Assembly: GCA_016169945.1 (NCBI GenBank)
Contig: JADLSH010000113.1
Coordinates: forward strand, 3,181,001 to 3,245,000
Reading direction: 5' to 3'
Source of the DNA: Trachythela sp. YZ-2020
Lineage: Eukaryota; Cnidaria; Anthozoa; Malacalcyonacea; Clavulariidae
DNA length: 64,000 bases
Position numbers and translations under genes: made by a program. The notes under the pieces were generated by a model. The model made no database searches, was not told the origin of the DNA, and worked only from the letters and a program-made list of their open reading frames with translations. Each line of letters opens with the position of its first letter. Within the stretch, counting starts at the first letter, position 1. Below are positions 8,550-59,830 of the stretch, piece by piece.

Positions 8550-8759
8550 TGTAGCGTGCCGATACTCAATAGACTTCACGAACTCGGTTTTAAACTCTTT
8601 ATTTCCCAGTTATATTACAGAGGCTGTAGCCTTTCATGTGCGACCCTCTCGCTCTGAGGTGCGCGTTCACTCCCTCGTCATCGGCTCAAGTCATTGTCTA
8701 GATCATCCACTGTCCGGAAACCACATCGGTTTCACATTACATATTGTATACACGTTACA
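8550..8759 (-). repeat. 3' LTR (relative to element)
   Basis: 210 bp, plus-strand start TGTAGCGTGCC and end ACACGTTACA. It matches 13665-13874 at every position I compared. Flanked outside by CACG (8546-8549). Confidence 0.93.
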
Positions 8760-8769
8760 CCATCTCCCT
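8760..8769 (-). other. Polypurine tract of the LTR element
   Basis: On the minus strand the ten bases just before the 3' LTR read AGGGAGATGG, all purine except one T. This is the expected position for plus-strand DNA priming. Confidence 0.7.
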
Positions 8770-10163
8770 ACATAAAATTCTTGCCCACAAGAATTGTACA
8801 TTTACAGAATTATGAATTATATAAATTACTACAACAGAGTTTGTTCTGGGAGTCTTATTACGCAGCAAACCCATACCGATCAGGCGCATGGACATCTTGC
8901 CTGAGATTCCTAGGCCTAACCCGAGGGACATGTGGAGCATTTTCGCAATTAGGTTGAACGTTGTTTGCGGGAACATTGTAAACCACCTGATCGCCCCAAT
9001 TTCTCGCGCAGGGCAGACAATGTCTCCACAGTTTAATGGTGCATAACCACGCTTCAATCGATCATGATGTACCACCGTAATCTTACCTTCGATCGATTTG
9101 ATTTTATAATCAACGCCTAACCGACAAACAACTTCAAACGGCCCGATCCACTTGGCCCCAAATTTCCATCCTTTGGTCTACGCAAGTAAACTGTTTCACC
9201 TGACCCGAATGGGCGCCACTTTTGCATTCTCTCTTCATTACCTTTCATTTGTTTCTCCCTTGCTCTCTCTAAGTTTACCTTTGCTACCTCTCTCACCTCC
9301 TTAAATATCTTCCTAAGAGACTGTGTGTATTCGGATTGTGTGCTAGGTCTTTCAGTGGGAGGCCTAGCTCTAATTCTAAGGGCAATCTCGGCGTACGACC
9401 AAAAACTATCTCATATGGAGATGTTTGCAATGACTCTTGTCGACTCGTGTTGTAGGCGAAAACTACTGCGTCTAGCCATAAATCCCAATCGTTATCGTGT
9501 TTTGTACAAAATGCCGCTAACATATCTTGCAGTGTCCTATTTTGCCGCTCTACTTGGCCGTCGCATTGAGGATGATACGCCGTTGTTCGCGTCTTGGTGA
9601 TTCCACTTAAATCGCACACTTCGTGCATTAAATTACTTTCGAAGCTCGCCCCTTGATCAGACTGTAAGACAACTGGGGCCCAAATCGACTGAAAACTTTA
9701 TCGACAAGTATTTTAGCTACTGTGGACGCTTTTGATCTGCAGTGGGAAACGCTTCACACCATTTTGTAAAGTGGTCCATTAAAACCAATATGTGGCGATT
9801 GCCACGACTAGTTTCAGGCAAGGGGCCCATATAGTCTAAAGCCCAAAATGTAAATGGTGTGCTCACTTCTAAACTTTGCAATGGGGCAGTTCCACTATTT
9901 GCCGTCGGCGCTGGCGCTTTTCTTTTGATGCATACGTCGCAATGGCGGATATAATCTTCAACAGATTTTCGCATATGTGGCCAAAAGAAACGTTTCCTAA
10001 TACGGTCTAGTGTTCGTGTGACGCCTAGGTGTCCGGTAAATGGGCTATCATGGGTACCCTTAAGTATTTCGTTTTCTAGTGCTTTGGGTACAACTACAAC
10101 CGGATCGGGATGCGTATTTCGTGTCTTAAGTGACCGATAAAGCAACCCATCTCGAACAAACAA
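8770..10163 (-). pseudogene. Integrase domain of the LTR element (frameshifted)
   Basis: Integrase inserts the cDNA into host DNA. The frame at 10163-9717 has the N-terminal HHCC zinc module (H in HDSPFTGH, H in GHLGV, then CDVC) and the first catalytic Asp in LDYMGPLPE. A frameshift follows near 9,700. The second Asp is in a QSDQG stretch at about 9,660, and the third residue (Glu) in RTTAYHPQCDGQVERQN within 9628-9293. Past a further break near 9,172, which lies next to a run of G, a WIGPFEVV...DYKIKSIEG segment gives the C-terminal GPY/F-like module. All three catalytic residues are present, but in different frames. Confidence 0.88.
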
Positions 10164-10189
10164 CTTTTTGTAATGATGCCAAAATGTTA

Positions 10190-11640
10190 CTAAGTGACGG
10201 TCATGTCGCCATGTCGCAAGCTTCTGTTTTGGTGTGCCGCTAATTTTAAGTTGGATAATTTGAGAAATAATCGGTCTTCTTGTTGCGCAGTCCGTAAGTT
10301 AATTGTTGGATTAACGCTTATTGCACAATTAGGTTTATCTTCGACAGAGTCCTGTAAATACGATGTCGCAGTGGTATCAGTTTGGCATTCTTGGACTGTG
10401 TTTTCATGCATGTGAGATTCGCTAGGAATAGGTGCTACAAGACGAGACAGAGCATCGGCATTATTGTGGAGTTTACCTGGCTTATGAATGACTGAAAATT
10501 GAAATTCTTGTAACTCCATTTACCACCTTTCTAACCGTCCTTTAAGACGTATACTATGTAGCCATTTTAAGGCACTATGGTCTGTTATAACCTTGAACGG
10601 GCGGCCTAATAAGTACGTCCGAAAAGTGCGGATACCAAATACAATCGCGAATGCTTCTTTTTCTGTTGTGCAGTATTTTCGCTCCCGGGCGGACAAAATT
10701 TTAGACGCATATGCTATGGGTCGTTCTTCGCCATTGTCATCAATCTGTGACAATACCGCACCTAGTCCTATATCCGATGCGTCTGTTTGTAGGATAAATT
10801 CTCGGTCAAATTTGGGATGGACTAGTACCGGCGAATTGCACAGACATGTCTGAAGCGTTGTAAAAGCATTTTCACAATCTTGGTTCCATTCAAACTGTTT
10901 TGTACTGGTTGTTGAGGTCAATTTAGTCAGAGGTGCCGAAATGGCTGCGTAATTCTTAATAAAACGGCGATAATACCCCGATAAACCTAGGAAACTTCGG
11001 ACTTCCTTGACTGTCTTTGGCACCGGAATTTGCTTGATTGCTTCGACCTTTGACGGAACCGGGCTTATACCGTCTTCGGATATCATATGTCCAAAATAGT
11101 GAACCTTCTTTGCCGCAAAAGTACATTTTGACACATTTAACCGCAGATTTTGCTGCTGGAAACGAGTTAAAACCGTTCTTAACCTACCACAGTGTTCGGT
11201 AACGCTGTTACTAAATATAATTATGTCGTCCAAATAGCAAAGACATATACTATAAGTAAGACCAGCTAAAACTAGTTCCATGGCTCGCTGGAACGTTGCG
11301 GGCGCAGTTGCGAGGCCAAAAGGCATTCGGTTGAACTCGTATAAGCCGCTATGCGTGATAAAGCGGTTTTCACGATCGTCAGGATGAACTGGAATTTGCC
11401 AATAGCCGCTTTTTAGGTCCAAAGTGGAAAAATACTTCGCGTTTCCCACCGAGTCGAGTAAATCGTCTACCCTTGGCAAGGGATGTGCGTCATGACGAGT
11501 AATCTGATTAAGTTGCCGGTAATCAATGCAAAGCGAATATCACCTGATTTTTTCGCACTAAAACAATTGGGCTAGCCCATGGGCTGGTGCTAGGACTTAT
11601 AATTCCTTGATCTAACATGTCCGAAATTTGTTTGTTTGAC
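10190..11640 (-). pseudogene. Reverse transcriptase-RNase H of the LTR element
   Basis: The RT begins near 11,640 with the SPTSPWASPIVLV-like palm entry region (here GIISPSTSPWASP). It changes frame near 11,545 and then runs in the long open frame 11479-10520. Motifs in order are a SGYWQIPVHP block, FGLATAPATFQRAM, the catalytic CYLDDIIIFS, and the connection FLGLSGYYRRFIKNYA. RNase H follows with LQTDASDIGLGAVLS and TDHSALKWL. The frame stops at 10520 and continues at 10519-10190 with FSVIHKPGKLHNNADALSRL, the usual end of RNase H. It makes cDNA from the element RNA and removes the RNA strand. Confidence 0.93.
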
Positions 11641-11802
11641 TCTTCGCGAAATGCGTATGGCATTCGTCTGGCTCGCTGCCTAATTGGAGAATTGTCACCG
11701 GTGTCAATTTTGTGCTGCGCTACGTTTGTTTTGCTAATTTCACCGCTAAAAGTTCCTCAAACTCTTCTAACACTCGTTTCACTTGTTGTTTTTCAGAATT
11801 AC

Positions 11803-12857
11803 TTAAACCGGGTCTAGACTAGAATCAATTTTTGACGCCACGTGATCTGCTTTGACGGCATTACAGTTAACCGGATCGTTGTTGTTAGCAACGGTCTCTT
11901 TCTCGACTAGAGGACAAAATTCCGCCAATTTACAACCTTGTGTTAATTCAATTTCGTTGTCCGTAGTGTTAGCTATTCGAATTGGCACTATTTTACCTAC
12001 AGGAGTAACAACTAAATGAGCTACATGCAAGCCTTTTAAATGTCTAACACTATCTGATTGACTACCTGATATCATACCAACCTGTGAAATGTTTTTCACC
12101 AGCACCTTACCGTCAATTATTATTTCCGATCGAGCCGGAATTGCAATGCCCTTAGGAAGAATAACTTTGTTAACACCTTTCAACTGAGATTGGACAAGAA
12201 GCATGCTTGTTTCAGTGGTTTTACTCGAGTCATCGGGGGAAGCAACAGGCGGATTTGCCTCTGTGATCACAACTCCGCTCGACTGTACCTTCATTGTTGG
12301 ATGCTCCGCATGTAATGGGAATTTCCCATAGGGCCCCACTAACTGAAAACTACTTCGACCTCCCCGAAAATCCCCTTGAATACCTAATTTGTGCTGCGTA
12401 ATAAAGTCCCATCCCAAAACACAATCGTAGGGTATATTACTACTTACAAGAAAACAACTATTATATATACGTTGAGAATGAGGAAAAGTGACACTTGTCA
12501 CAATGTTGCCTTGAATATCTAATTCCCCACCTGTAATTGAAGTGCAACGCTGTGATTGCGATTTATCTAATAGAATACAGTCAAAATCGAGAATATTATG
12601 AATGTTATCATTAATAAAGACTTCATTGATCCAGTATCTAGAAGAGCATTGACCGGTACACCGTCAATGAAACATGTTACGAATGGGTGTGCAGGCAAGC
12701 TCTCATTACAAACATTAGTACTATTAGCATTAAGAGAGTCACAGTGCTTACTTGTTTCGGGGCTGTCTACCGGCCTGTAGTTCCTCGAGACGCCCCTTGG
12801 AAGTTTAAAGGTGCATAGTTTCCACAATCGCGAGCAAAATGTCCATATCTTTGACAT
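11803..12857 (-). pseudogene. Aspartic protease region of the LTR element
   Basis: The frame 12857-12567 contains VNALLDTGS, the catalytic D-T/S-G motif of retropepsins, preceded by FVTCFIDGVP. After a break near 12,560 the next frame (12501-11803) opens with the second conserved protease motif, YDCVLGWDFI, about 60-70 residues downstream as expected. The remainder, about 180 residues up to the RT, has no motif I recognise. The protease would cut the Gag-Pol precursor in the particle. Confidence 0.85.
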
Positions 12858-13694
12858 TCATAGCACCGTACATTGGAATGGTTTTGACGTTGGCGTGGAC
12901 TGCGGCAATCACGAGCAAGGTGACCTGGTTTTCCACATTGAAAACATGTAGCTTTCGATCGCTGTCGATTTATAGGTTGGTTAACTGCGGCGGCATAGAA
13001 CTGTTCTGAAGTGGCCATCTGATCTTCGAGCGCCTTCTGTCGAGTGGCAAGTTCGTTCATGAGACCCACGAGTTGGTCCATGTCGGCGTTCGGTTTGGGT
13101 GTTGCGGAGCTGGCGTTGGTTGTAAAGGATGAGTCGTGTTCTTCAATCGCACGATAACGCTGAACAAAGCCTAGCATTTCGTTCACGTTTGGTGTGGGGT
13201 TATGAGCCAAAGCTTCCCTCTCATTGGTTTGGGTAGACCACGCATAAATTGGCGCGACAAAAGTGCAGATGTGGCTTCGTCACCGAGCGTTGGGTCGGCT
13301 TTTTCCAGAAGTTGTTCCAGCTCCCACTTGAAAACTGATGGGTCTTCACCGCTCCGAAGCATTCGGGCCTCAAACTTGGCATAATAATTTTCCTCTCGAC
13401 TGGTGGGCACAGGGCTTGTTTCAAGCGCTTCGTCGCGGCGTCGTATGTGGCTCTCTCCTCGGCAGGAATGGCGTAGAAATGACTAGACGCGCGGCCACGG
13501 AGAAACGCAGGTAATTTCTTGATCTTGTCGTCGTCTTTCCAACCATTGGCTACAGCACATGCATCAAACTCTCTTAGCCAGGCGACAACGTCGTCTCCGT
13601 CGAATTTTGTTGGCAGAATGCTCGTTGACATGATTTCGTTTTTTGTTTTACCGCTGCCACCAATTGTAGCGTGCCGATACTCAATAGACTTCAC
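12767..13694 (-). pseudogene. Gag of the LTR element (three overlapping frames)
   Basis: A capsid-like region (LPTKFDGDDVVAWLREFDA at about 13,620; LPAFLRGRASSHFY) is followed by two CX2CX4HX4C zinc knuckles, CFQCGKPGHLARDC and CYECQRYGHFARDC, near 12,830-12,950. This is a nucleocapsid layout. The coding is spread over frames 13694-13221, 13410-13183 and 13210-12767. Both changes of frame lie beside short homopolymers (CCC near 13,408 and GGG near 13,215). Gag forms the particle and packages RNA. Confidence 0.88.
13651..13662 (-). other. Candidate primer-binding site
   Basis: On the minus strand, two bases inside the 5' LTR, the sequence reads TGGTGGCAGCGG. A TGG start at this place is what a tRNA 3'-CCA primer requires. 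Which tRNA is used was not determined. Confidence 0.6.
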
Positions 13695-13874
13695 GAACTC
13701 GGTTTTAAACTCTTTATTTCCCAGTTATATTACAGAGGCTGTAGCCTTTCATGTGCGACCCTCTCGCTCTGAGGTGCGCGTTCACTCCCTCGTCATCGGC
13801 TCAAGTCATTGTCTAGATCATCCACTGTCCGGAAACCACATCGGTTTCACATTACATATTGTATACACGTTACA
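13665..13874 (-). repeat. 5' LTR (relative to element)
   Basis: 210 bp, same sequence as 8550-8759. Flanked outside by CACG (13875-13878), the target duplication. Confidence 0.93.
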
Positions 13875-15290: not shown

Positions 15291-16586
15291 AAAACTTGCT
15301 CATTGCTACAAAGCAAATCCAAGATATATACTCCACTTTTTAACAAAGGGACAACACAATCTGAAAATATATGAACATCCTTTAATTGAATTAATAATAA
15401 TATATTTGCTGATTCCAAAATTACTTTGCAGCTGAACATTAAAATGGTAATAAATTTAGGAAAATCTTGCCATGCTCATGCAATGTTCTCACCAATTACC
15501 TATTAAAACCAGGTTATTCTGTGTCACTCCAATGCTTAAGTTAACCCATTAACAACTAACAATTTTCCTTAGCAGGTGAAGTTGTCTGGCATTAGACAGA
15601 GTAAACTTGCAATATAAGATGCACAATCAGGAATTTATACAAGCACTTTATCCTACTGTCGTTTTTCAGATGAAGAAAATGAATTATTTACAACCGTTTA
15701 CGGGTAGCAGAAAGGTGCTTCTATATAAATCCCTGATAATCATTGTGGTTTAATGGGTTACAAATTTGTTATTAGGTAAAGTCAACAGTTATAGAGTCTG
15801 ATGATTACTACACTAATTTCCCCATAGTCTATAGACATGCCAAAAGACTGCAACTCCACATTTTCTGAGATCAGAATACCTCTATTCTTTTGCTCCTGTC
15901 AGTATGGCCAATATCAAACACACACAACTTGACGCAGACCATTAACTCCTTGCGTTATCTTCCTCAGCGATACAAAGTTGCTCTATTACTTTAGTCGTGA
16001 TGCCAAGGTGAACCATACATAAATATCAATATTTTTCCAGCTTCACAATCACATATAATTACAGTAGGTTATCTATAAAATACATTGAAAGTAAGGTACA
16101 TAAGTAAATACAAAATTCAGATTAACTTAAAATATTTGCTAATAGTGTCTGCTAATAATACATAATTATGATATTCTCTTTCATTAGGCAGGACATAGCT
16201 GATTTAACTACTATTTGACGAGATCACAGTTGCATAAAAAATAATCAATTCTCACACAATAATAAATATTCTTGCAGTGAGTTCCATATCAAAATCACCC
16301 CTAGTGACCCCACTAGAAGTGGGTAAGGTCCAGTGTTACCATAGAGCACACAGGTTATAATTATAATACAATTAGCTATTGCTTATGTACAGTTAGCCTC
16401 CTGAGATTGCAAAACTCCCTTAGGCATGATGCGCATGTCTATGTAAATGCTTTCTTCACCCTACTCTCCTGGGCAGCACACTTTGGAGGAACAAGCAGGG
16501 TATAGTTAAAAGAGAACTAGGCTTGTACCACATGACCGTGGTATTTTTCAGTGAATACCTGTACCCTGAGTCGTTTCCCCGGGGAA
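15291..16586. other. Non-coding stretch
   Basis: No gene or bounded repeat recognised. At its right end, 16587-16607, there is a 21-base palindrome (TGGTATTCGA, G, TCGAATACCA) just before the LINE coding sequence, possibly an insertion-site feature. Confidence 0.4.
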
Positions 16587-16607
16587 TGGTATTCGAGTCG
16601 AATACCA

Positions 16608-18782
16608 CGCTTGAGCTGGGAATTTGAGTTTTTAATGCCATTCAGTGCAGTCTATGCCTTCAGCGATCCTGAAGATATGCTTGAGTCATTTAACACCCTA
16701 ATCCAAGACTGCATTAATCGTCACGCGCCAATAAAGCGAATAAAAGTTACTCGTCCCCCATGTCCGTGGCTCAAAACTGGCGATATACAAGCCCTCCAAA
16801 TCCAACGCAACAAGTTACGCTTTGAAGCACACAAGACCTCTCTTGATAGTATATGGAATGCTTTCAGAAAGGTTCGTAACAGTCTAAAAACCAAGATCAA
16901 GGCGGCTAAACGATCCTTCTATCAAACAGTCTTATCCTCCAAAAACTCCAAAAAGATCTGGAAAGTAATTCATTCTATTTTAAACCCCCCTTCGCAGCCA
17001 CTTCGACATGACCCAAACTAATTAAATTTGCATTTTTCTGGTACTGTTCAGCGGACACTGGGCTACACGAATAACGTTAGCGAAAACGATCTTTACGCTT
17101 ACACTGATTCTTTGCCTATTTCCGCTGAGCCAAATCTCAGTTTGAACAAGGTCAGCCAAGCCGAAGTACTAAGAGAATTGCATAATCTTGGTAATGATAG
17201 CTCGACAGGTCCTGATCGAATTCCATCAAAGTATATTAAACCAGTTGCTGATATAATCGCAGCTCCTCTGACACACATTATAAACTCTTGTATTGATGCT
17301 AACTTATTTCCCTGTATTTGGAAGATCTCAAGAATATGTCCCATTCCCAAAACGGAAGCGCCAAAGACCTACGATGATTTTAGACGTATCGCAATCCTAC
17401 CTGTCTTATCCAAGATATACGAAAGACTCGTCCTCAAACAGCAGCTGCCTTTTATCGACAACTGTCTCAATGACAATATGCCTGGTTTTAGGAAAGGCCA
17501 CTCTACTGCCACGATCTTGATGGCCATGAGAGACGATATTAAGAGTGCTATGAAAAAAGGAGAACCTTGCTTTTAGCAGATTTTTCGAAAGAATTCGATA
17601 CCATAAACTTCAAGACCGTTTTAAAAAAATTACACCGACTAATTTTCTCCCATGGCTTTTTATATTGGATAACGAGCTATCTAACAAATCGCTTCCAATA
17701 TGTTCAAATTGATGACAAGAAATCCAACCTAACCCCCGTATGCTTTGGAGTACCACAAGGATCCATACTTGGTCCCTTTATTTTTAACCTATATGTATCT
17801 GATGTTGATGTCCCTCAAACTTGTTATCAATACGCGGATGACACTTCGCTGTATGAACATTGTAAAACTGCTAAACTCGATCAATCAATCGATAATGTGC
17901 AACAATCATTGGATTCCCTGAATCATTGGTCCTCACTTTCGAATTTGTCATTAAATCCAAAAAAAACTAAATCAATGCTGTTTTCTACAGCTCAAATGTC
18001 ACGAGCCCATTCCCTCGACAAAGTTAAACTAGATCTTACCTGTGTTAACAGGAAATAAAACGCGAAACTGCTACATTACTGCGTCATTTTTACTGATCAC
18101 TTAAACTGGAACGAACATATAAAGTATTTGACGTCTTCCTGTTGTGCTGTCTTGGCAGTCTTGTGTAAGTTAAAGCATATGGCCCCGTATAACTTACGTA
18201 AACAATTGGTCGAAATGCTTGTTACATCAAAACTAGATTGCTGCGACACAGTATATAGTCCTGTACACGACTACCAAATAAAGAGACTACAGCGCGTCCA
18301 AAATGCATGCGCTGGTTTTGTTAAAGGCTCTTACGCTAAAGTTACTGACGTCATTAATATTGGTTGGCTCCCCATTAAGGAGAGACGCGATTGGCATATG
18401 CTAAAGATGGCCCACAAAGCATTACATCAATCCCCATGGCCAGCATATCTCCCGCTGAAAATTCAATCAAGTGAGAGGGTACTTCGCTCAAACGCAGCAT
18501 TGAAACTTCAAGTACCGCTAGAAAGTGGAACTTTTCAAGATACAGCCTCGCAATTGTTCAATGCTTTACCGGCTGAACTTAGGAACTGTGATCATTTTGC
18601 TCATTTCTCACGACAGTGCAAAGACCTTTTAATGAGTAACGCAAGAGACAAATATTTTGTATAACCATATTTTCAAACCTTAGTTTTAAATTTTTATAGA
18701 GACTTTCTATTACATAGACATAGTACTGTATTTTAATGTAAATTATTTGCAGATGTAGAGCCACGCCGTGGAAAAGCTGCAA
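16608..18782 (+). mobile_element. 5'-truncated non-LTR retrotransposon (CR1/jockey-like)
   Basis: Coding sequence starts in the linker between endonuclease and reverse transcriptase, so the 5' half, including all of the endonuclease, is missing. The 3' end runs into GCAATAAATAATAATAAT, a microsatellite tail. 5' truncation and a simple-repeat tail are typical of target-primed reverse transcription. The clade assignment is by motif style only. Confidence 0.88.
16620..18664 (+). pseudogene. LINE reverse transcriptase, broken
   Basis: The N-terminal part (16620-17021) contains RHAPIKRIKVTRPPCPWL, the usual entry to the RT of jockey/CR1-type LINEs. One in-frame TAA at 17019-17021 interrupts it, and the frame continues at 17028-17576 with SSTGPDRIPSKYIKP and NDNMPGFRKGHSTATIL. 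A frameshift near 17,570 leads to 17567-18058, which holds the DFSKEFDTI block, GVPQGSILGPFIFNLY and the catalytic QYADDTSLY. After another stop (near 18,058) the C-terminal thumb region continues in the same frame to 18664 (SKLDCCDTVYSP, RLQRVQNACAGFV). The catalytic residues are present but the frame is broken at least three times. Confidence 0.88.
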
Positions 18783-23326: not shown

Positions 23327-25008
23327 TCATTTAAAAAACCTACTACAGCCCGATTTAAACACGCTGAGATTATTTGTTTTGCGTAACTCAGTAGGAATGC
23401 TATTCCAAAGCACAGCACCACTATAACCAAAGCTATTCTTTAGGTAGTTGGTCCGTGGCTTTGGAATAGCTAGTTTGCCTTCGGTGTCTCTCATTGAGTA
23501 GTTCGTGATGCTGCTACGGTCTATGAACATGGGACGCAAGTAATCGGGAGCGAGCCCATTAAGTGATTTATAGACCATAACAGCTTTTTCAAGCTTGCGC
23601 TGGGTATCGAGTTTTCTCCAGCCAAGCTTCTCTAGTAGAAAATCAGCAGCAATGTCATAGCTAGAAGATGTTAACACTCTTGCTGCACGATTTTGAAGCT
23701 TATCAGCATAGGTTTTGTTACAATTATCCCAGACGACGCAGCAATAATTAAAATGCGGTTGCACTAACGAATTGTAAATATACTGCAGAGTCGTAAATGG
23801 AACAAAAGGCATTACACGTTTTATAGCTCCAATGCTTGATGCAATCTTTTTAATTAGCTTATTGATATGCATATTCCAAGACAGATTTTCATCAATCAGT
23901 ACACCTAGAGACTTTGTAAGCGAAACCTGATTAACAGGGAACCCATCAATTTCCAGAGATGGTAATGGGCTCAACGTACATAATCTTTGCCTTGAACCGA
24001 TCAACATGAACTCTGTCTTGGATTGATTTAAAGTAAGCTTGTTTGCGATAAGCCACTCACTAACGTTCACAAGGTCTTGATTCAGATTCTGATTAATATC
24101 ACGAACGTTATTGCTTGCCAACGTCAAATGAGTGTCGTCTGCATACATACGTGCCTGGGAATGTTCGAGGCAATTAGGCAAATCATTTATATAAATTAAA
24201 AATAGTAATGGCCCCAGATAGTCTCCTGCGGATACCACAGGACAGTGAGCGGTTCGGTGATAGAAAACCGTTCACGAAGCATTTTTTATTACGATCGCTT
24301 AGGTAAGATTTAAACCATTCACTTCCTATACCATATGCATTTAATTTAGATAAAAGAATTGCATGATCTACGGTGTCAAACGCATTTTTGAGATCTAAGA
24401 AAACTACTGCGTTTACGTTACCGTGATCGATGTTGTACGCCCAGTCGTTTGTGGCTTCGAGAAGAGCAGTAACTGTGGAATGTAGGCTTCGGAATCCTGA
24501 TTGACTAGTTGAAAGTAATTTGTTATCCGTAAGAAAAATTGACTTGATCATAAATAATCCTCTCAAAAACTTTGTACAATAGGAATAATAGAGATGGGCC
24601 GATAGTTATTGAGATCCTTACATTCCCTTGTTTAAATAATGGTATGACCTTTGAACATTTCCAATCGTCGGGGAATATACCCGTGATAATGGAGCGGTTA
24701 AAAATTATACTTAGAGAATCTGAAATCAAATCAGGGCATTCACGAAGAAGCCTAGCTGAAATTTTATCCAAACCAGTTGCTTTAGATTTGCTAAGTTTGG
24801 ATAGAAGAGAAAAGACTATAGACGAACTTGTTGTCTTCAGTTGAAAACTAGTACTAGCTCCACTTTCGTTACTTGAAAGGTAATCTAAATGAGAACGACT
24901 GTTTTCGTTACAAGGTATTTTATCGGCAAGCTTTGGCCCAATATCAGCGAAATGATCGTTAAACGCTTCAGGTAATTTTTGAGAGCCGCTTATAGAACAG
25001 CCGTTCAA
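23327..25008 (-). pseudogene. RT of the minus-strand LINE, frameshifted
   Basis: The coding is in three frames: 25008-24523 (KATGLDKISARLLRECPDLI), 24566-24183 (QSGFRSLHSTVTALLE and VFLDLKNAFDTVDHAIL) and 24238-23327 (GPLLFLIYINDLPNC, then the catalytic MYADDTHLT, and a thumb region with HFNYCCVVWDNC). Two breaks lie in or beside short homopolymers (a run of T near 24,530, a CC pair near 24,230). The catalytic Asp pair is intact. RT primes on nicked target DNA and copies the LINE RNA. Confidence 0.9.
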
Positions 25009-25061
25009 TTCAATTTCCTTTACGTGCGAGATGTGTTGTTTTCTTGAAGTTAGTTCATTAA

Positions 25062-26159
25062 TTATATTCCAAGTCTTTTTCGAATTGCTTTTATTTTCGT
25101 GAAAAGCGCTCGTATGTACATTTCTTTGGCATGTTTGATTTCAGTATTTACAATATTGCGAGTTCTCCTAAAAGCGTGCCAATCAGCTGGGTCATTAGAG
25201 CTGCACGCTTTTATCTTCAAAATATCTCGATCATGCATGCGTTGGTTTAAGTAAGGGGTAATCCAAGGCGATTTAGAAGCCCTAATACGCTTTGTACACA
25301 AAGGCGCATGTCTTTCAACAACACTATTAAATATATTTTTCCAAACATGCCACATGTCACTTGGGTTATCATGTGCCCTAATTTCATCCGTTCCCACCCT
25401 GCAGCCAGATATCGTTTCTGAAACTTGCAGAATCAAATTCTTAAACTTTCTATAGGTCACAGTAGAGTGGCCCTTAGTAAATAAACCAGTTGAAAGTTTA
25501 CGAAAAGCATAAATTAGGCTATGATCACTGATACTGATATGAGAGACCCCGGAGCAAACAATCTTATCAGGCGAATTGGTAAATATCAAGTCAATTAGTG
25601 TTGAAGATGACTTGGTTATGCGAGTTGGTTCGCTTATTAACTGTTGTAAGCCATAAAGATCAGTGATGCTAGTCAAAATGGTTGAATTATGATCCATTAC
25701 GGTTGACCCAAAATTGCAGTTCAGGTCACCCATTAAGTAATATTCAACATTTTCTGCGTCGAGTCTACCTACTAGAGTTTCAAAATAGTTGAATTTGTCG
25801 ACGGGTGAATCTGGAGGTCTATACCAAGTTGTAACGAGAAAAGGCTTGGATCTAGGTTTACGAATTTCGATACATAAATTTTCTAGTTGATCAATTGACA
25901 TATCGAAACGTGGTAGAAAATTGATATTGCATCGAACATAAAAACATACACCACCCCCAAATCTGCCATTGACGCTTCTGTCGCGACGTACAATTTCATA
26001 ACCAGATATATGAACCTCATTGTCATTTATAGTAGAATCAAGCCTTGTCTCGTTAATTGCCAAAACATCGATTGAATGGTCAATAAGCAAAACTCTAAGC
26101 TCGTCGATATGCTTTATTATACTAGTAACATTAAGTGATGCTAGTTTGAAGCCCCGCAT
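25062..26159 (-). pseudogene. AP-type endonuclease of the minus-strand LINE
   Basis: An open frame of 365 codons from the ATG at 26159. Motifs of the exonuclease-endonuclease-phosphatase fold are LNVTSIIKHIDEL at the start, AINETRLDS with the catalytic Glu, TWYRPPDS, the GDLNCNF block with Asp and Asn, and the SISDHSLI block with Asp and His. All catalytic positions are present. The frame is lost near 25,090 at a run of four A, after which the peptide is open in another frame into the RT, so this is the N-terminal half of one large ORF2. The enzyme nicks target DNA. Confidence 0.92.
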
Positions 26160-26210
26160 AATAGGTATTGTTGACTGTTTATGTTGGGGATGGTTAGAGG
26201 GTGTGGAACC

Positions 26211-34690: not shown

Positions 34691-36460
34691 CAGTAATATA
34701 CAGGCCGATCAACCCCCTTTTGTAGAGGGGGGGGGCAGGGGAAAGGGGAGCACATCATTAAAAATTCAAATATCATTAACATATGGTACATTAACATAAA
34801 TGGGGTAGCAGCGTCATTAATAGGGGGGAGCAAGGGGAAGCACATCATTAAATATTCAAACTTCATTAGCATATGGTACAGTAACATACAGGGGGTGCAG
34901 CGTCATTAACAGGGGGGAGCAAGGTGGGAGCACATCATTAAGAATTCATTAACATCAACATTAATTATGTATTGACGTCATAATGATATGCAAGGCCAGT
35001 TTGGACAAAACAGTCATTATGTTGAGTTCAGCATATTTTGTGCGCAACAAAATATGGGTTTGTTGTCGCGAGATTTATAAACTCCTTCAATCTCGTATCT
35101 AGTGAGCATTTCTTTGAGAGTCGACCAATACTAATAAGTTTACAAAGTTTTCAAGCGTTTATTTAGTAAAGCCTATACAAGCGAGATTTACAAACATTGT
35201 CGTTTTGGCGTTAGAAACATAAATAGTTTGATGAATTTATTGCTAATGTAAACTAAAGACACAATAGCTTAACTCATTAAGGGATTAAGTCAAAAGGCTT
35301 GTTCGGGCGAAACATCATTAAACTGAACCATCACAACAGCTAAGCATCCGTATAAAGTTCCCAAGCATCGCGTTCGAAACACAGTTCCGGTTTCGATATA
35401 TTTTCGTATCTAATATCACCTTATACGAAACGGCTTAGACAACTAATATAGCGACGCTTAACCTAACAAAATATTATTACCTTAAACGAAGTAACAACAA
35501 GCAGAAATATAGCATTCTAAAACGAGAAGATCTTAAAGTTTGTCGGCATAGTAAGCGTTGTTTAGGTCTTATAGAGCAATACAAATATATTTTTGCTAAG
35601 CGATTGTATAAACATAGTTCTTACAGGGATTTAAACCTTCCAAATTTCAAGCGTTTTAGATGTGGCAGAGTGGGAAAAGCAGTGATATTTAAGCGAGCAT
35701 ATACAAACATATACAAGCATTGTATATACATTTAACATTGCACTATGTAAAATCCGCGAGACATATATACGATAAATTTAAAAGAGAAAGCTAACATAAT
35801 TCCATGCGTTGCCATGTCTTGTTAGTTGTTAGGTGAAAGCAATTAAATCTAGTTTTGCATAGTACATTTTGTACTTTAAATCATTCAACCGGCGATTAAC
35901 ACAGCCAAACAGTCATCTCCCAGACATACCTGAGCGAACACCAACCAGATAACTTTAAGCAAACAGGTTTTACTTTTGTAAGATACTGTATGATGTCCTA
36001 AGATATTGTATGATATCCTAAGATACTGTATGATATCCTAAGATACTGTATGATATCCTAAAATGATATTCTAAGATACTCTATGATATCCTAAGATACT
36101 GTATGATATTCTAAAATGATATCCTAAGATACTCTATGATATCCTAAGATACTGTATGATATCCTAAAATGATATCCTAAGATACTCTATGATATCCTAA
36201 ATGATATCCTAAGATACTGTATGATATCCTAAAATGATATCCTAAGATACTCTATGATATCCTAAAATGATATGCTAAGATACCGCATGATATCCTAAGA
36301 TACTCTATGATATCCTAATATACTGTATGTTATCGCTGCTCCCCCCCTGTATGTTAATGTACCATATGCTAATGATGTTTGAATTTTTAATGATGTGCTC
36401 CCCCCTTGCTCCCCCTGCTCCCCCTACAAAACGGGGTTGATCGGCCTGTATATTACTACT
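34691..36460. mobile_element. 1.77-kb non-autonomous element with inverted ends
   Basis: The left end CAGTAATATACAGGCCGATC (34691) and the right end, in complement CAGTAGTAATATACAGGCCG (36460), start inverted arms of about 120 bp. These arms contain the G-run, AGCACATCATTAAAAATTCAAA and CATATGGTACATTAACAT. The left arm holds two to three tandem copies of an ~88-bp unit of the same sequence. The interior has no open frame of note and includes a 20-bp minisatellite. The superfamily is not recognised. Confidence 0.7.
35977..36330. repeat. 20-bp minisatellite (GATATCCTAAGATACTGTAT)
   Basis: About 20 imperfect units of a 20-bp repeat, mixed with shortened 13-14-bp units (AAAATGATATCCT). It lies next to the right inverted arm of the 34691-36460 element. 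Confidence 0.9.
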
Positions 36461-43985: not shown

Positions 43986-44825
43986 AATATAATATTCAAT
44001 TTGAGTAAACGCTTTGGCGGTATAATTTTATTTATGAATTATGAGCAAAATCATTCTATAAACTTTGTTGAACTAACTGTTATAGGCCTATATAAGAAAC
44101 AACCTGTTGTTGTTGTGAATCTGTCTGCCGAATTACGAATATATTTTCAACCAGCTTCGCCGCTTCGCCACTCATTCACAACTTATGTTCCGTAAATTCG
44201 TAAAATAGACTATTCGTAAACAACACATGTTTACGTTTAAATACGAAATTATTTTAGAAATTTGGCCACTTCGTTGTTTTGGGATTGTCTTCGATTTAAA
44301 ATAAACGAAATCTTATAAACTTTTCATTCGCGCCATCTTGCGGTGCTGATATTACTATAACGGCACGACCGTGCGTTGTTGCTATATAAAATGCACACAC
44401 GTGGTACAAATTGACCAATAAGAACGCGAGTTTATGAAAATTGAATATTAATTATAGATTACCGCATGCATAACTTCCTAATACACCTTAAATAATGCAT
44501 ACACTACTGAAAGGAAAAGGGAAAAAAATTACACTAAGGGAAAAAATTGTGCGAAAATTAATATTACATTATTTAGATATTTTTGTAAGAGATAATAATG
44601 CTTTATTTAGGAAAACAAACATACTAGTATATAAAAGATCACTGTCATAATTTTAAGGTCTAGGCAATATTGTTATGGTTTTCTTCGAGTGTGGAACTGC
44701 ATGTCTGTTCAGTGTTAACAACGTGACAAAAATGATTTCATTCGAATTCTATCTGGTCATTTTATTTACCGGGCTAGGTGTACTGTATATACACATATAC
44801 ACACACACACTACCTGCAGACATAC

Positions 44826-45033
44826 ATGCAAATCTGCAGACATGCATGTTTCGCCGTTCAACGGCTCGTCAGTGCAGCTTGTAACGCAGTCTAGATGCGA
44901 GTGACTTCGTATTTATACACCATACTCTTGCCCTCACCAAGCGCATGTGGTACAATACTCAGACACATGCGCATTTAGACATGCGCGAAGTGTCTTGGGG
45001 CCAGAGTGCTCAAACGACCACAAGGGAAATATA
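44826..45033 (-). mobile_element. Hammerhead-ribozyme repeat unit, minus-strand copy
   Basis: On the minus strand this reads from CCCTTGTGGTCGTTTGAGC to the ribozyme at 44877-44834. It is the inverted counterpart of 46193-46402, nearly the same throughout. It lacks the first ~85 nt of the 284-nt monomer defined on the plus strand. No ORF. Confidence 0.75.
44834..44877 (-). ncRNA. Hammerhead ribozyme, type I, intact core
   Basis: The minus strand has all invariant parts in order: stem I strand CTGCA (44877-44873), CTGACGA core, stem II GCCGT-TGA-ACGGC, GAAA, a very short stem III (A-C-A with a TGCA loop and T-G-T), the cleavage triplet GTC with the scissile position between 44839 and 44838, then TGCAG closing stem I. 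The Watson-Crick pairs in stems I and II are complete. Short-stem-III type I hammerheads are known from Penelope-like elements and metazoan retrozymes. It would self-cleave tandem RNA into monomers. Activity was not tested; the structure was read by eye. Confidence 0.8.
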
Positions 45034-45195
45034 TATATATATTTCTAAAATTAATTAATTATTCACAAGCAAAATACAAAGGAAACTCATGACCCATTGC
45101 TCAAATTTTCTCCTTTAATTTTTACAGCGTTGATAACATCAATCTACAAAATTCCAACGCCAGTGAAAGTACAAAACGAGTCATTTTAGAAGTCA

Positions 45196-45292
45196 TATAC
45201 AAACCTTGCAGTTCGGCCTTTATCAGATCTAAAACACTCGGCTGCGCCTCGATGTTTTAAATCAGATAAAGACCTCACGCGCGGTTTGTATA
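45196..45292. repeat. Hairpin element
   Basis: ATACAAACC ... GGTTTGTAT at the ends and CTTTATCAGATCTAAAACA against TGTTTTAAATCAGATAAAG, with a CTGCGCCTCG centre. It resembles the 2693-2834 hairpin in style. Confidence 0.75.
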
Positions 45293-45294
45293 TA

Positions 45295-46028
45295 CAGTCG
45301 AACCTCCCGTAAGCGGGCACCCTCGGGACCACGACCTGGTGTCCGCTTACGGGAGGTGTCCGCTTATGAGAGGTTGGTTAATATTTAACTGATTACGTAA
45401 TTGCTGAAACATGATTCTTTTAATAATGATGTTAATATGACTATATTATTGACAGCTATTATTGCAAATTTACTCTAAAAACCCCACCGTAAAACCTTTG
45501 CGCCCCTAGATTATATACAAACATTACCAATTTAATATCTATATTTCATGCCGTTGTAAATATGAGACTATAGTTCAGCTAAGATGGCTTGAAAAAATCT
45601 GTTATGTGCGCTTGCTTTTGTCCCGCTAAACGTATGTCTGTAAGAATGTCATTAACATTTAAGACAGCTCGGCAAAGTTCTTCGTTGCCCGTGAAATACG
45701 CGAAATATTTTCTGCAATATTTGAAGCTTTGGCCGTTGTTTTAATGTCGGGTTCTCTCAAAGGGACGTATTCTAATACTGTAGTAAGTCAACTAGGCGGC
45801 ATAATTATTAATTTAACAGAAAACAAATCAAGTGTGTCCGCTTACAAGAGGTTATAATGTTGTTTGGGAAGGTTGTTTTGGTGTCCGCGTCCGCTTACGG
45901 GAGCTGTCCGCCTAGGAGAGGTTGTAAATATAGTAATATAATAGCGTATTGGCTGGGACACAAAAAACAGTGTCCGCCTACAAGAGGTGTCCGCTTCCGG
46001 GAGGTGTCCGTAAGTAGAGGTTCGACTG
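45295..46028 (-). mobile_element. pogo/Tigger-like element, internally deleted
   Basis: 734 bp between TA dinucleotides (45293-45294 and 46029-46030). Ends are CAGTCGAACCTC and, in complement, CAGTCGAACCTCTACTTAC. Near both ends there are repeated GTGTCCGCTTACGGGAGG units. A relic of the transposase C-terminus lies inside on the minus strand. Confidence 0.8.
45579..45775 (-). pseudogene. C-terminal transposase relic with PCNA-binding-like motif
   Basis: Minus-strand reading gives REPDIKTTAKASNIAENIS and then, after one frameshift near 45,665, DILTDIRLAGQKQAHITDFFKPS and a stop at 45579-45581. QAHITDFF fits the PIP-box pattern Q-x-x-[IL]-x-x-F-F. A C-terminal PCNA-binding motif is established for the pogo transposase. 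The upstream catalytic region is gone. Confidence 0.6.
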
Positions 46029-46070
46029 TATTACATTACGAAGTCACTCGCATCTAGACTGCGTTACAAG

Positions 46071-46113
46071 CTGACTGACGAGCCTTTGAACGGCGAAACA
46101 TGCATGTCTGCAG
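46071..46113 (+). ncRNA. Hammerhead ribozyme motif, degenerate copy b
   Basis: The CTGACGAG core and CGAAAC are kept and GTC is at 46106-46108, but stem I is weakened (CTGA instead of CTGCA) and stem II has a mismatch (GCCTTTGAACGGC). Probably inactive or weak. Confidence 0.6.
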
Positions 46114-46392
46114 ATTTGACTATACATGCTCCTTCACTTTGTGTTGTTGAGCACTCTGTGAGGTTAATTGGTGGCTATTAGCTATAATGCAAAAAGCTCA
46201 CTTCCCTTGTGGTCGTTTGAGCACTCTGGCCCCAAGACACCTCACGCATGTCTGGATGCGCATGTGTCTGAGTATTGTACCACGTGCGCTTGGTGAGGGC
46301 AAGAGTTTGGTGTATAAATACGAAGTCACTCGCATCTAGACTGCGTTACTAAGCTGCACTGACGAGCCGTTGAACGGCGAATCATGCATGTC
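46109..46392 (+). mobile_element. 284-nt hammerhead-bounded monomer (retrozyme-like)
   Basis: The interval between the predicted cleavage points of copies b and c. It holds the CACTCTGGCCCCAAGACA block, a TATAAATAC stretch and ACTCGCATCTAGACTGCG before the ribozyme. It has no ORF. The size and the ribozyme-monomer-ribozyme layout match non-autonomous retrozymes and Penelope-type terminal repeats; the second explanation needs a Penelope ORF, which is not in the window. Confidence 0.6.
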
Positions 46393-46397
46393 TGCAG
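46354..46397 (+). ncRNA. Hammerhead ribozyme motif, copy c with one core change
   Basis: Stem I (CTGCA/TGCAG), CTGACGA, stem II (GCCGT-TGA-ACGGC) and GTC are intact, but the third A of GAAA is T at 46382. That A pairs with the U of the cleavage triplet, so this copy should be impaired. Confidence 0.65.
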
Positions 46398-46635
46398 ATT
46401 TTACTACATATATATATACATATGCTCTCAACGAGTGATCTCTATACGGCAATTGAACGCGTCAAAAGTTACGCTACACTACTAAAATAGCTCTGTATAT
46501 AGGGTTTAGCCTGATAATGATTTCGTTTTTTTCTCTCAATTTCGTAACGATGGCCCAGCAATTGCTAACCGTCTCCGATAGCCCGCAAAATGTTGGAATA
46601 TTAATGTGAATTGCCGTTTCATAAAGCAAATCCTG
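46398..46635. other. Non-coding spacer
   Basis: Flank of the hammerhead locus; only a short TATATATATA run was noticed. Confidence 0.4.
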
Positions 46636-59339: not shown

Positions 59340-59830
59340 TTCACAGTAATTTTTTGGGGCCATTTTGGCCCCAGGGGGCCGTTTTGGCACTTTAAAACAG
59401 GGGCCGATTTGGCCCTGACAGGGGCCAAAAGACAACTCTGGGGCCGTTTTAGCCCCAAGGGGCCGTTTGGGCTCTTCTAAACAGGGGCCGTTTTGGCCCT
59501 GAAAGGGGTTAAAACACAACTCTGGGGCCGTTTTAGCCCCTGGGAGCCGTTTGGGCTCTTTTAAACAGGGGCCGTTTTGACACCCTGAAAGGGGCCAAAA
59601 CGCAACACTGGGGCTGTTTTAGCCATGGGGAGCCGTTTTGGGCCAATTTGAAAGGGGGTCGTTTTGGCTCTGAGGGAGCCAAGACACAACTCTGGGACCG
59701 TCTTGTCACATTATGGGCTGTATAGCCCCTTTTAGAATTTAGAGCTGTTTTTGCCACGACATTATTTTGAGTAATTTTTTTATTTTTAAACACGGAAGCC
59801 GTTATTGGCCAACTTGCCAAAACAGGAGAG
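59340..59830. repeat. Palindrome array, class D (GGGGCC...GGCCCC units)
   Basis: Units such as GGGGCCGTTTTGGCCCC and GGGGCCGTTTTAGCCCC, alternating with ACAACTCT and CTTTTAAACAG spacers; a longer period of about 115 bp is also visible. The minus-strand frames here only translate the repeat. Confidence 0.85.

Follow-up and report, generated by a model that had tools for sequence, protein, structure and literature searches.

The hammerhead motif in the 64,000-nucleotide stretch analysed here (the window) belongs to a large, young, non-coding family whose placement among metazoan non-LTR retrozymes is supported by its layout, and whose copies usually end at one fixed 3′ point beside a (TA)n target. 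Both the fixed end and the target are new here. A family of GIY-YIG Penelope-like elements (PLEs) in the same genome is, judged from sequence, the likely partner of these retrozymes. Animal retrozymes, their circRNAs and a suspected mobilisation by PLEs are already published (PMC7229834); the relevant passages of a 2020 review describe the animal repeats as showing no conserved motif that betrays an autonomous element (PMC7761336), and those of a 2024 review still name LINEs or PLEs as movers (PMC11722881). Our literature search, mostly of freely readable papers, found no demonstration of an autonomous partner. To the question of how animal retrozymes move, the fixed start point, the (TA)n target in common with one PLE family and the PLE–retrozyme joints described below bring a concrete candidate partner and a directly testable reaction and, if true, the genome alone would reveal which autonomous element an animal retrozyme uses.

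Three copies of the motif were recovered when the window was searched with a pattern drawn from these copies (mean of 0.00 in 100 shuffles), at the positions given by a sequence-only reading of the same DNA. The observation is confirmed, with damage in both plus-strand copies: the minus-strand copy (44877-44834) alone among the three passed a structural scan that found 0 such motifs on both strands of a simulated 20 Mb first-order Markov sequence. Inspection of the minus copy reveals it to be intact, as claimed, since none of its conserved letters is changed and no stem is lost. It comprises a 5-bp stem I, CTGACGA, a 5-bp stem II closed by TGA, GAA, a stem III of ACA/TGT around TGCA, then GTC and TGCAG. 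Stem I is without an evident loop and stem II ends in a triloop in both the structural scan and the folds, and the motif looks minimal. Judged by these letters and stems, the minus copy is a minimal type I hammerhead with no part missing, and the small DNA unit that carries it specifies a probable self-cutting RNA. The core and stem changes reported for the plus-strand copies are present: in copy 1 (46075-46108) stem I is 2 nt short and stem II contains a mismatch, and copy 2 (46359-46392) has A changed to T directly after GAA. This T is at position 15.1 in hammerhead numbering and breaks the pair closing stem III. A distance of 284 nt separates the predicted plus-strand cut sites (46108/46109 and 46392/46393), and the monomer between them is without a long ORF (longest 50 aa in four joined copies of the window unit), both in agreement with the earlier description.

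The view that the hammerheads bound a monomer stands only where the right-hand dimer is concerned. To the left lies a separate, inverted copy, and the locus is broken up by a putatively mariner-like insert. This left copy (44829-45028, minus strand) is 5′-truncated and covers unit positions 93-292, with its 3′ end at the low coordinate and a (TA)n tract at the other end; complementarity of its two arms to 46202-46349 and 46351-46401 is 96% and 98%, respectively. Its 3′ end is without clean (TA)n (TA/AT fraction of 0.21), and the 3′ flank (44780-44828, minus) consists of a short repeat of the hammerhead 3′ side followed by a TG/TA simple repeat. Two inserts separate this copy from the right-hand units. 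The first, read from the sequence as a small foldback (TATACAAACC...GGTTTGTATA; 45185-45294), lies outside the retrozyme, and the second is the mariner-like insert itself (45295-46028), 734 bp with inverted ends CAGTCGAACC/GGTTCGACTG and TA on both sides; 17-bp GTCCGCTTACGGGAG repeats occur inside it. On the plus strand there follow a 5′-truncated unit that runs from unit position ~210 to cut site 1 (46037-46108), a complete unit of 284 nt that spans from one predicted cut site to the next (46109-46392), both units ending in damaged hammerheads, and the array terminus (46393-46425), which reads TGCAGATTTTACTA and then a TA-rich tract, as is usual in the family. Within the complete unit, a TATA-box-like GTATAAATA (46312-46320, plus) may serve as a promoter. 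To judge from these changes, the window locus is an old, damaged member of a young retrozyme family. The assembly holds both haplotypes of the locus, on contigs C327 and C256, which differ in a ~270-bp insert and a ~525-bp stretch. The C256 copy was considered as a second insertion and rejected, being the other haplotype with the ~270-bp insert difference.

The earlier description of the locus as retrozyme-like, and the search that it proposed for further copies of the same layout, are answered by the rest of the genome, where exact motifs and tandem, non-coding, head-to-tail units of ~282 nt abound. The exact 44-mer hammerhead of 44834-44877 occurs 3,159 times (1,568 + 1,591) in the 578 Mb genome, a whole-genome count that is free of similarity-ranking bias, and the reversed-pattern control returned 0. 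Counts of units, arrays, array ends, folds and hammerhead variants come from the best 40 of 726 candidates and are biased toward query-like copies. Overlapping loci (L017, L022, L028, L030, L036) and a second haplotype (L038) were excluded, seven loci (L008, L009, L016, L018, L024, L034, L037) were swapped for longer cuts, and L010/L011 (99% alike) are not independent. Within this similarity-ranked set, 44 arrays hold 93 complete units, mostly of 281-284 nt and head-to-tail, 49 of them exactly 282 nt and 26 letter-identical. Arrays range from 1 to about 7 units (1 to 6 complete, plus partials). The longest ORF of the commonest unit is 54 aa. Hammerheads in the 39 similarity-ranked loci comprise 117 letter-identical copies and 23 variant or partial ones with GAA(A/T)CATG..TGTC.

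A type I hammerhead around a non-coding unit of 150-450 nt, in many tandem copies from dimers to multimers, is the layout of a metazoan non-LTR retrozyme. Such retrozymes also have no LTR, PBS or PPT, and no LTR was noticed in the present family. Metazoan non-LTR retrozymes share with the present family the type I hammerhead, non-coding head-to-tail units of ~170-400 nt, many copies and an occurrence in cnidarians (PMC7229834). The unit GC of 0.47 is under 50% and over 45%; the same paper gives metazoan retrozyme GC as <50% in its text and <45% in its Figure 1. Published work attributes minimal hammerheads to PLEs and Terminons, and the canonical form to the retrozymes of corals (PMC7229834). 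The present family differs from the coral retrozymes in its minimal-looking hammerhead, a difference made non-absolute by mussel retrozymes, which are without most loop contacts (PMC7229834). Through the combination of a predicted minimal hammerhead with retrozyme layout, the family is a new variant. Set beside the metazoan non-LTR retrozymes of PMC7229834, the features described here for the window family are a 3′ end anchored at (TA)n and a PLE family as candidate partner. Plant LTR retrozymes are alike in non-autonomy, a hammerhead-bounded unit and a circRNA model (PMC4918200, PMC7229834, PMC7761336) and differ in having a type III hammerhead, LTRs, PBS/PPT and a length of 600-800 nt (PMC7229834, PMC7761336).

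Among the refuting conditions set by the sequence-only reading, a lack of significant covariance-model hits is what the window showed, but a lack of further genomic copies of this layout is strongly contradicted. No Rfam model matched the window at gathering score, and Hammerhead_1 (RF00163) had no match in 44600-46600 even at E up to 10. Ribozyme models that matched this interval at E up to 10 were limited to RAGATH-1-hammerhead (E of 0.022) and Hammerhead_3 (E of 0.82 and 1.4), and the seven genome matches to Hammerhead_1 are all of other sequence than the window motif. A degenerate form of the motif had 0 matches in each of the viral and prokaryote collections. Folding of a single strand places the hammerhead at -10.4 kcal/mol, which is not the minimum-energy structure (-15.0 kcal/mol), whereas two strands paired via the palindrome ACATGCATGT reach -41.7 kcal/mol against -15.0 for one strand. 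The hammerheads of newt and axolotl satellites are similar in a weak stem III with a palindromic tetraloop and in likely acting as dimers, and their unit of ~330-350 nt is a further likeness (PMC7229834); axolotl hammerheads keep loop 1–loop 2 contacts, in contrast to the 5-bp stem I of the window family, which has no evident loop. The commonest unit folded as a circle gives -92.2, compared with -77.4 (sd 4.6) for 100 shuffles. In a diverged subfamily, stem II GCCGT/ACGGC is replaced by GGCGT/ACGCC, which is one compensatory pair. With that single pair the covariation score is weak, reached by 33 of 500 shuffles in an alignment of 9 rows, the variants of exactly 44 nt; variants of other lengths were excluded.

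The ends of the arrays carry the argument about movement. With BLAST pieces <40 nt or <94% identity left out, 47 of 53 arrays reach the query end TGCAGATTTGAC, 12 nt beyond the cut, which marks one common 3′ point. In 35 of the 53, the next 20 nt have a TA/AT-dinucleotide fraction of ≥0.8, a level found in 0.5% of background 20-mers, and TA-tract length varies between copies. Forty of the 3,159 exact motifs, sampled in listing order (one site per cluster, contigs C2-C11, clusters C2:192206 and C8:1158702 omitted; L119/L122 and L140/L141, alike in their flanks, are not independent), agree: 36 motifs are terminal and four have a further unit next, and TA-rich sequence directly follows 33 of the 36 terminal units. 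The 5′ ends are scattered, with one cluster in the range 61-87 of the unit, which itself reads TATAA there. None of the 53 arrays starts at the cut; four start at unit 272-274, which is 9-11 nt ahead of it, and three start 5-14 nt past it (units 6, 10 and 15). A satellite spreading at the DNA level by unequal exchange and TA-tract slippage, with the hammerhead as a relic, would fit the tandem layout and the variable TA tracts. Such a satellite is very improbable given the usual single 3′ end with scattered 5′ ends across 53 arrays and 36 terminal units, and given how far the letter-identical hammerheads outnumber the variant or partial ones in the similarity-ranked loci.

These ends place the predicted start of copying 12-19 nt beyond the site of cleavage. 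On a linear RNA that the hammerhead has released, such a start would yield a copy of only ~19 nt, and the template would therefore be circular or uncut. A start point so soon after the ribozyme cut could also explain the need for a circular or uncut template. We think it likely that such RNA is copied at (TA)n by the reverse transcriptase of the candidate PLE. In the proposed reaction, head-to-tail units would be transcribed, perhaps from the internal TATA box, and the minimal hammerhead, probably acting in dimeric form via the palindromic stem III ACATGCATGT as the folds suggest, would cleave the transcript at GTC. A host ligase would then circularise the 282-nt piece, as published work in other species suggests, and a GIY-YIG PLE of the same genome would provide reverse transcriptase and endonuclease. 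At the observed target and end, the (TA)n tract would be opened and copying would begin at ATTTGACTATATA, 12-19 nt past the cut. Copying would pass the cut point and go round the template, presumably a circle, and its products would be the arrays observed, which hold 1 to about 7 units and have a fixed 3′ end but 5′ ends that are scattered. For a PLE, too, reverse transcription is described as starting downstream of the site where the hammerhead cleaves (PMC11167929).

An uncut multimeric transcript as template, with arrays copying arrays and the hammerhead merely trimming, has a lesser though real chance of being correct: insertion by a purified PLE system is unaffected by hammerhead mutants, which suggests unprocessed RNA as the main substrate (PMC11167929), and shared variants segregate within some arrays. 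Against it, scattered 5′ ends, arrays of up to about 7 units and many identical units would be natural for a circle, and circRNAs of related units are published (PMC7229834). Substitution distance is 0.0083 within arrays and 0.0208 between them. Substitutions fixed through all units of an array comprise 6 private and 2 shared, and those unfixed comprise 47 private and 32 shared. Array variation does not separate a circle from an uncut multimer as template.

The candidate partner emerged from a genome search for GIY-YIG sequences, which gave at least 46 matches (best 150 of 921 candidates scored), falling into several PLE families; the stretches at 18 of the 46 were examined. The candidate family has RT and GIY-YIG domains and carries a different minimal hammerhead of its own, CTGAAGAAGCCTTGA..CGAAACGT. 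Its 3′ end reads ACTA or CAAGTTCA, or extends into a ~36-nt tail with an AC-rich end. Such ends and tail resemble the two start sites and 'tail' of the anole PLE, an anatomy published together with two-strand cleavage from in vitro work (PMC11167929). A TA tract of ≥8 nt lies within 70 nt of 19 of the 23 candidate PLE ends that have the end motif, a set that includes two near-identical pairs, compared with 0.023 such tracts per 70 nt in the window background. The PLE copies examined carry stops or frame breaks, and head-to-head copies are present in the family, with at least eight pairs listed.

Retrozymes recur beside these elements. Seven of the 23 PLE ends have a retrozyme within the examined stretch, as does L077, which is without the end motif; at C303 the retrozyme is on the other side of the PLE. 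Ten GIY-YIG stretches outside this PLE family (L062-L064, L070-L076) contain no retrozyme. A pattern for the PLE tail has 22 matches in the whole genome and 0 for the reversed control, among which the C349 and C354 pairs are not independent. Fifteen of the 22 have (TA)n within 40 nt and seven have a retrozyme within 330 nt, five of these in the same orientation and 3-17 nt on. An exact retrozyme motif within 300 bp of a random point is expected at 0.0033, a figure that ignores the shared (TA)n target. A taste for (TA)n common to two separate machines would also place PLE and retrozyme side by side, and nested insertion would explain most of these neighbours. From the retrozyme side, one of 39 loci (L055, 1172-1347) shows a 3′ end of this PLE family, of the A3 kind, 20 nt upstream of an array made of seven retrozyme pieces; the gap is filled by a TA tract plus a few further letters.

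Close inspection of the joints reveals that TA is kept between PLE and retrozyme at C288, C309, C95 and C230, and ATA at C246. Two tail–retrozyme joints are without TA, at C303 (TTTTCC between) and C22 (a 4-nt AGAC overlap). The joint at retrozyme unit 193 is common to C246 and C309, whose 3′ flanks differ, and either a chimera was mobilised as a single RNA or the flanks were altered afterwards. Because the same joint recurs with different 3′ flanks, we also weighed a broader reaction in which the candidate PLE would copy retrozyme RNA in trans at (TA)n, jumping between retrozyme RNA and its own within one reaction, and PLE–retrozyme chimeras with the retrozyme terminus would themselves be mobile; we hold this reading at a little below an even chance. 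Two readings of single loci were rejected. L060 was considered as a PLE with the retrozyme's hammerhead, but the PLE's own hammerhead differs and the retrozyme is a neighbour, and L091 was considered as a TA-free PLE–retrozyme fusion, but C309 has the same joint with a TA tract.

The window locus resembles a PLE terminus in its minimal hammerhead, its inverted and direct arrangement and its AT-rich target, yet it is not a PLE. PLEs have been described in inverted as well as direct arrangements (PMC3846280); among 14 neighbouring retrozyme pairs, the window included, three are head-to-head, four tail-to-tail and seven same-strand. In accord with the earlier statement that no Penelope ORF is present at the locus, two PLE pieces had no match in the window (tblastn, E up to 1). 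PLE hammerheads and pseudo-LTRs share with the window family a minimal hammerhead, inverted and direct terminal copies and an AT-rich target (PMC3846280, PMC11167929), from which the window family differs in tandem 282-nt units, a 3-bp stem III and the lack of an ORF. The units might then be solo pseudo-LTRs, the terminal repeat of a PLE itself, with no independent retrozyme. PLE pseudo-LTRs match on all three shared points (PMC3846280, PMC6155905), and PLE copies do adjoin retrozyme DNA. We nonetheless judge this origin unlikely, since the candidate PLE has a different 3′ end, tail and hammerhead of its own, none of the PLE pieces examined, which are without a complete PLE 5′ end, is framed on both sides by a same-orientation unit, and no DNA match to the candidate PLE family occurs in the examined stretches of 38 of the 39 retrozyme loci. 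Among the same 39 loci, L012 has a weak protein match to PLE (25%). Because 38 of 39 loci are without a nearby PLE DNA match, the explanation by a PLE partner was itself weighted slightly lower. Movement by a LINE, with (TA)n as a common landing pad, draws on the LINE-type ORFs in the window and on a literature that names LINEs or PLEs as candidates (PMC7229834, PMC11722881). We consider a LINE as mover unlikely as well, as it is PLE 3′ ends that share the (TA)n target and are fused to or beside retrozymes, in a comparison that covers PLE ends alone.

Several further observations concern neighbouring repeats. One repeat, beginning ACGTGTAGGTTTAGGTCTACGAAACG, recurs just after (TA)n near retrozymes (L010, L011, L118, L136, L143) and is perhaps a second user of the target. 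Two further PLE families (L063/L064/L075 and L070/L073/L074) have different minimal hammerhead-like motifs, and their examined stretches contain no (TA)6 or longer. At L065, a PLE end is closely followed downstream by two hammerhead-like motifs of another type (~527 and ~658, reverse complement). L001, L002 and L007, on other contigs, carry a second hammerhead family, CTGATGAGCCCCAAAAGGGCGAAACAGCTGTC, whose stem III is palindromic and whose scores exceed or come close to the Rfam cut-off for type I, and L003, L005 and L006 hold more hammerhead-bearing repeats, of the CTGATGAGTGCTACATTGCACGAAACAGCTGTAGTGGAC and CTGAAGAGTCC... kinds. Elsewhere in the window, 8755-13724, 16536-18664 and 23327-26210 contain Gypsy-type ORFs and two LINE-type elements, and tandem arrays with units of 84 bp and 53 bp occupy 59355-59701 and 36010-36318, respectively. 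The host is probably a cnidarian, such as a coral or anemone, since the named relatives of a window LINE ORF, a minority among at least 120, are cnidarians (e.g. Oculina, Pocillopora, Montipora and Nematostella).
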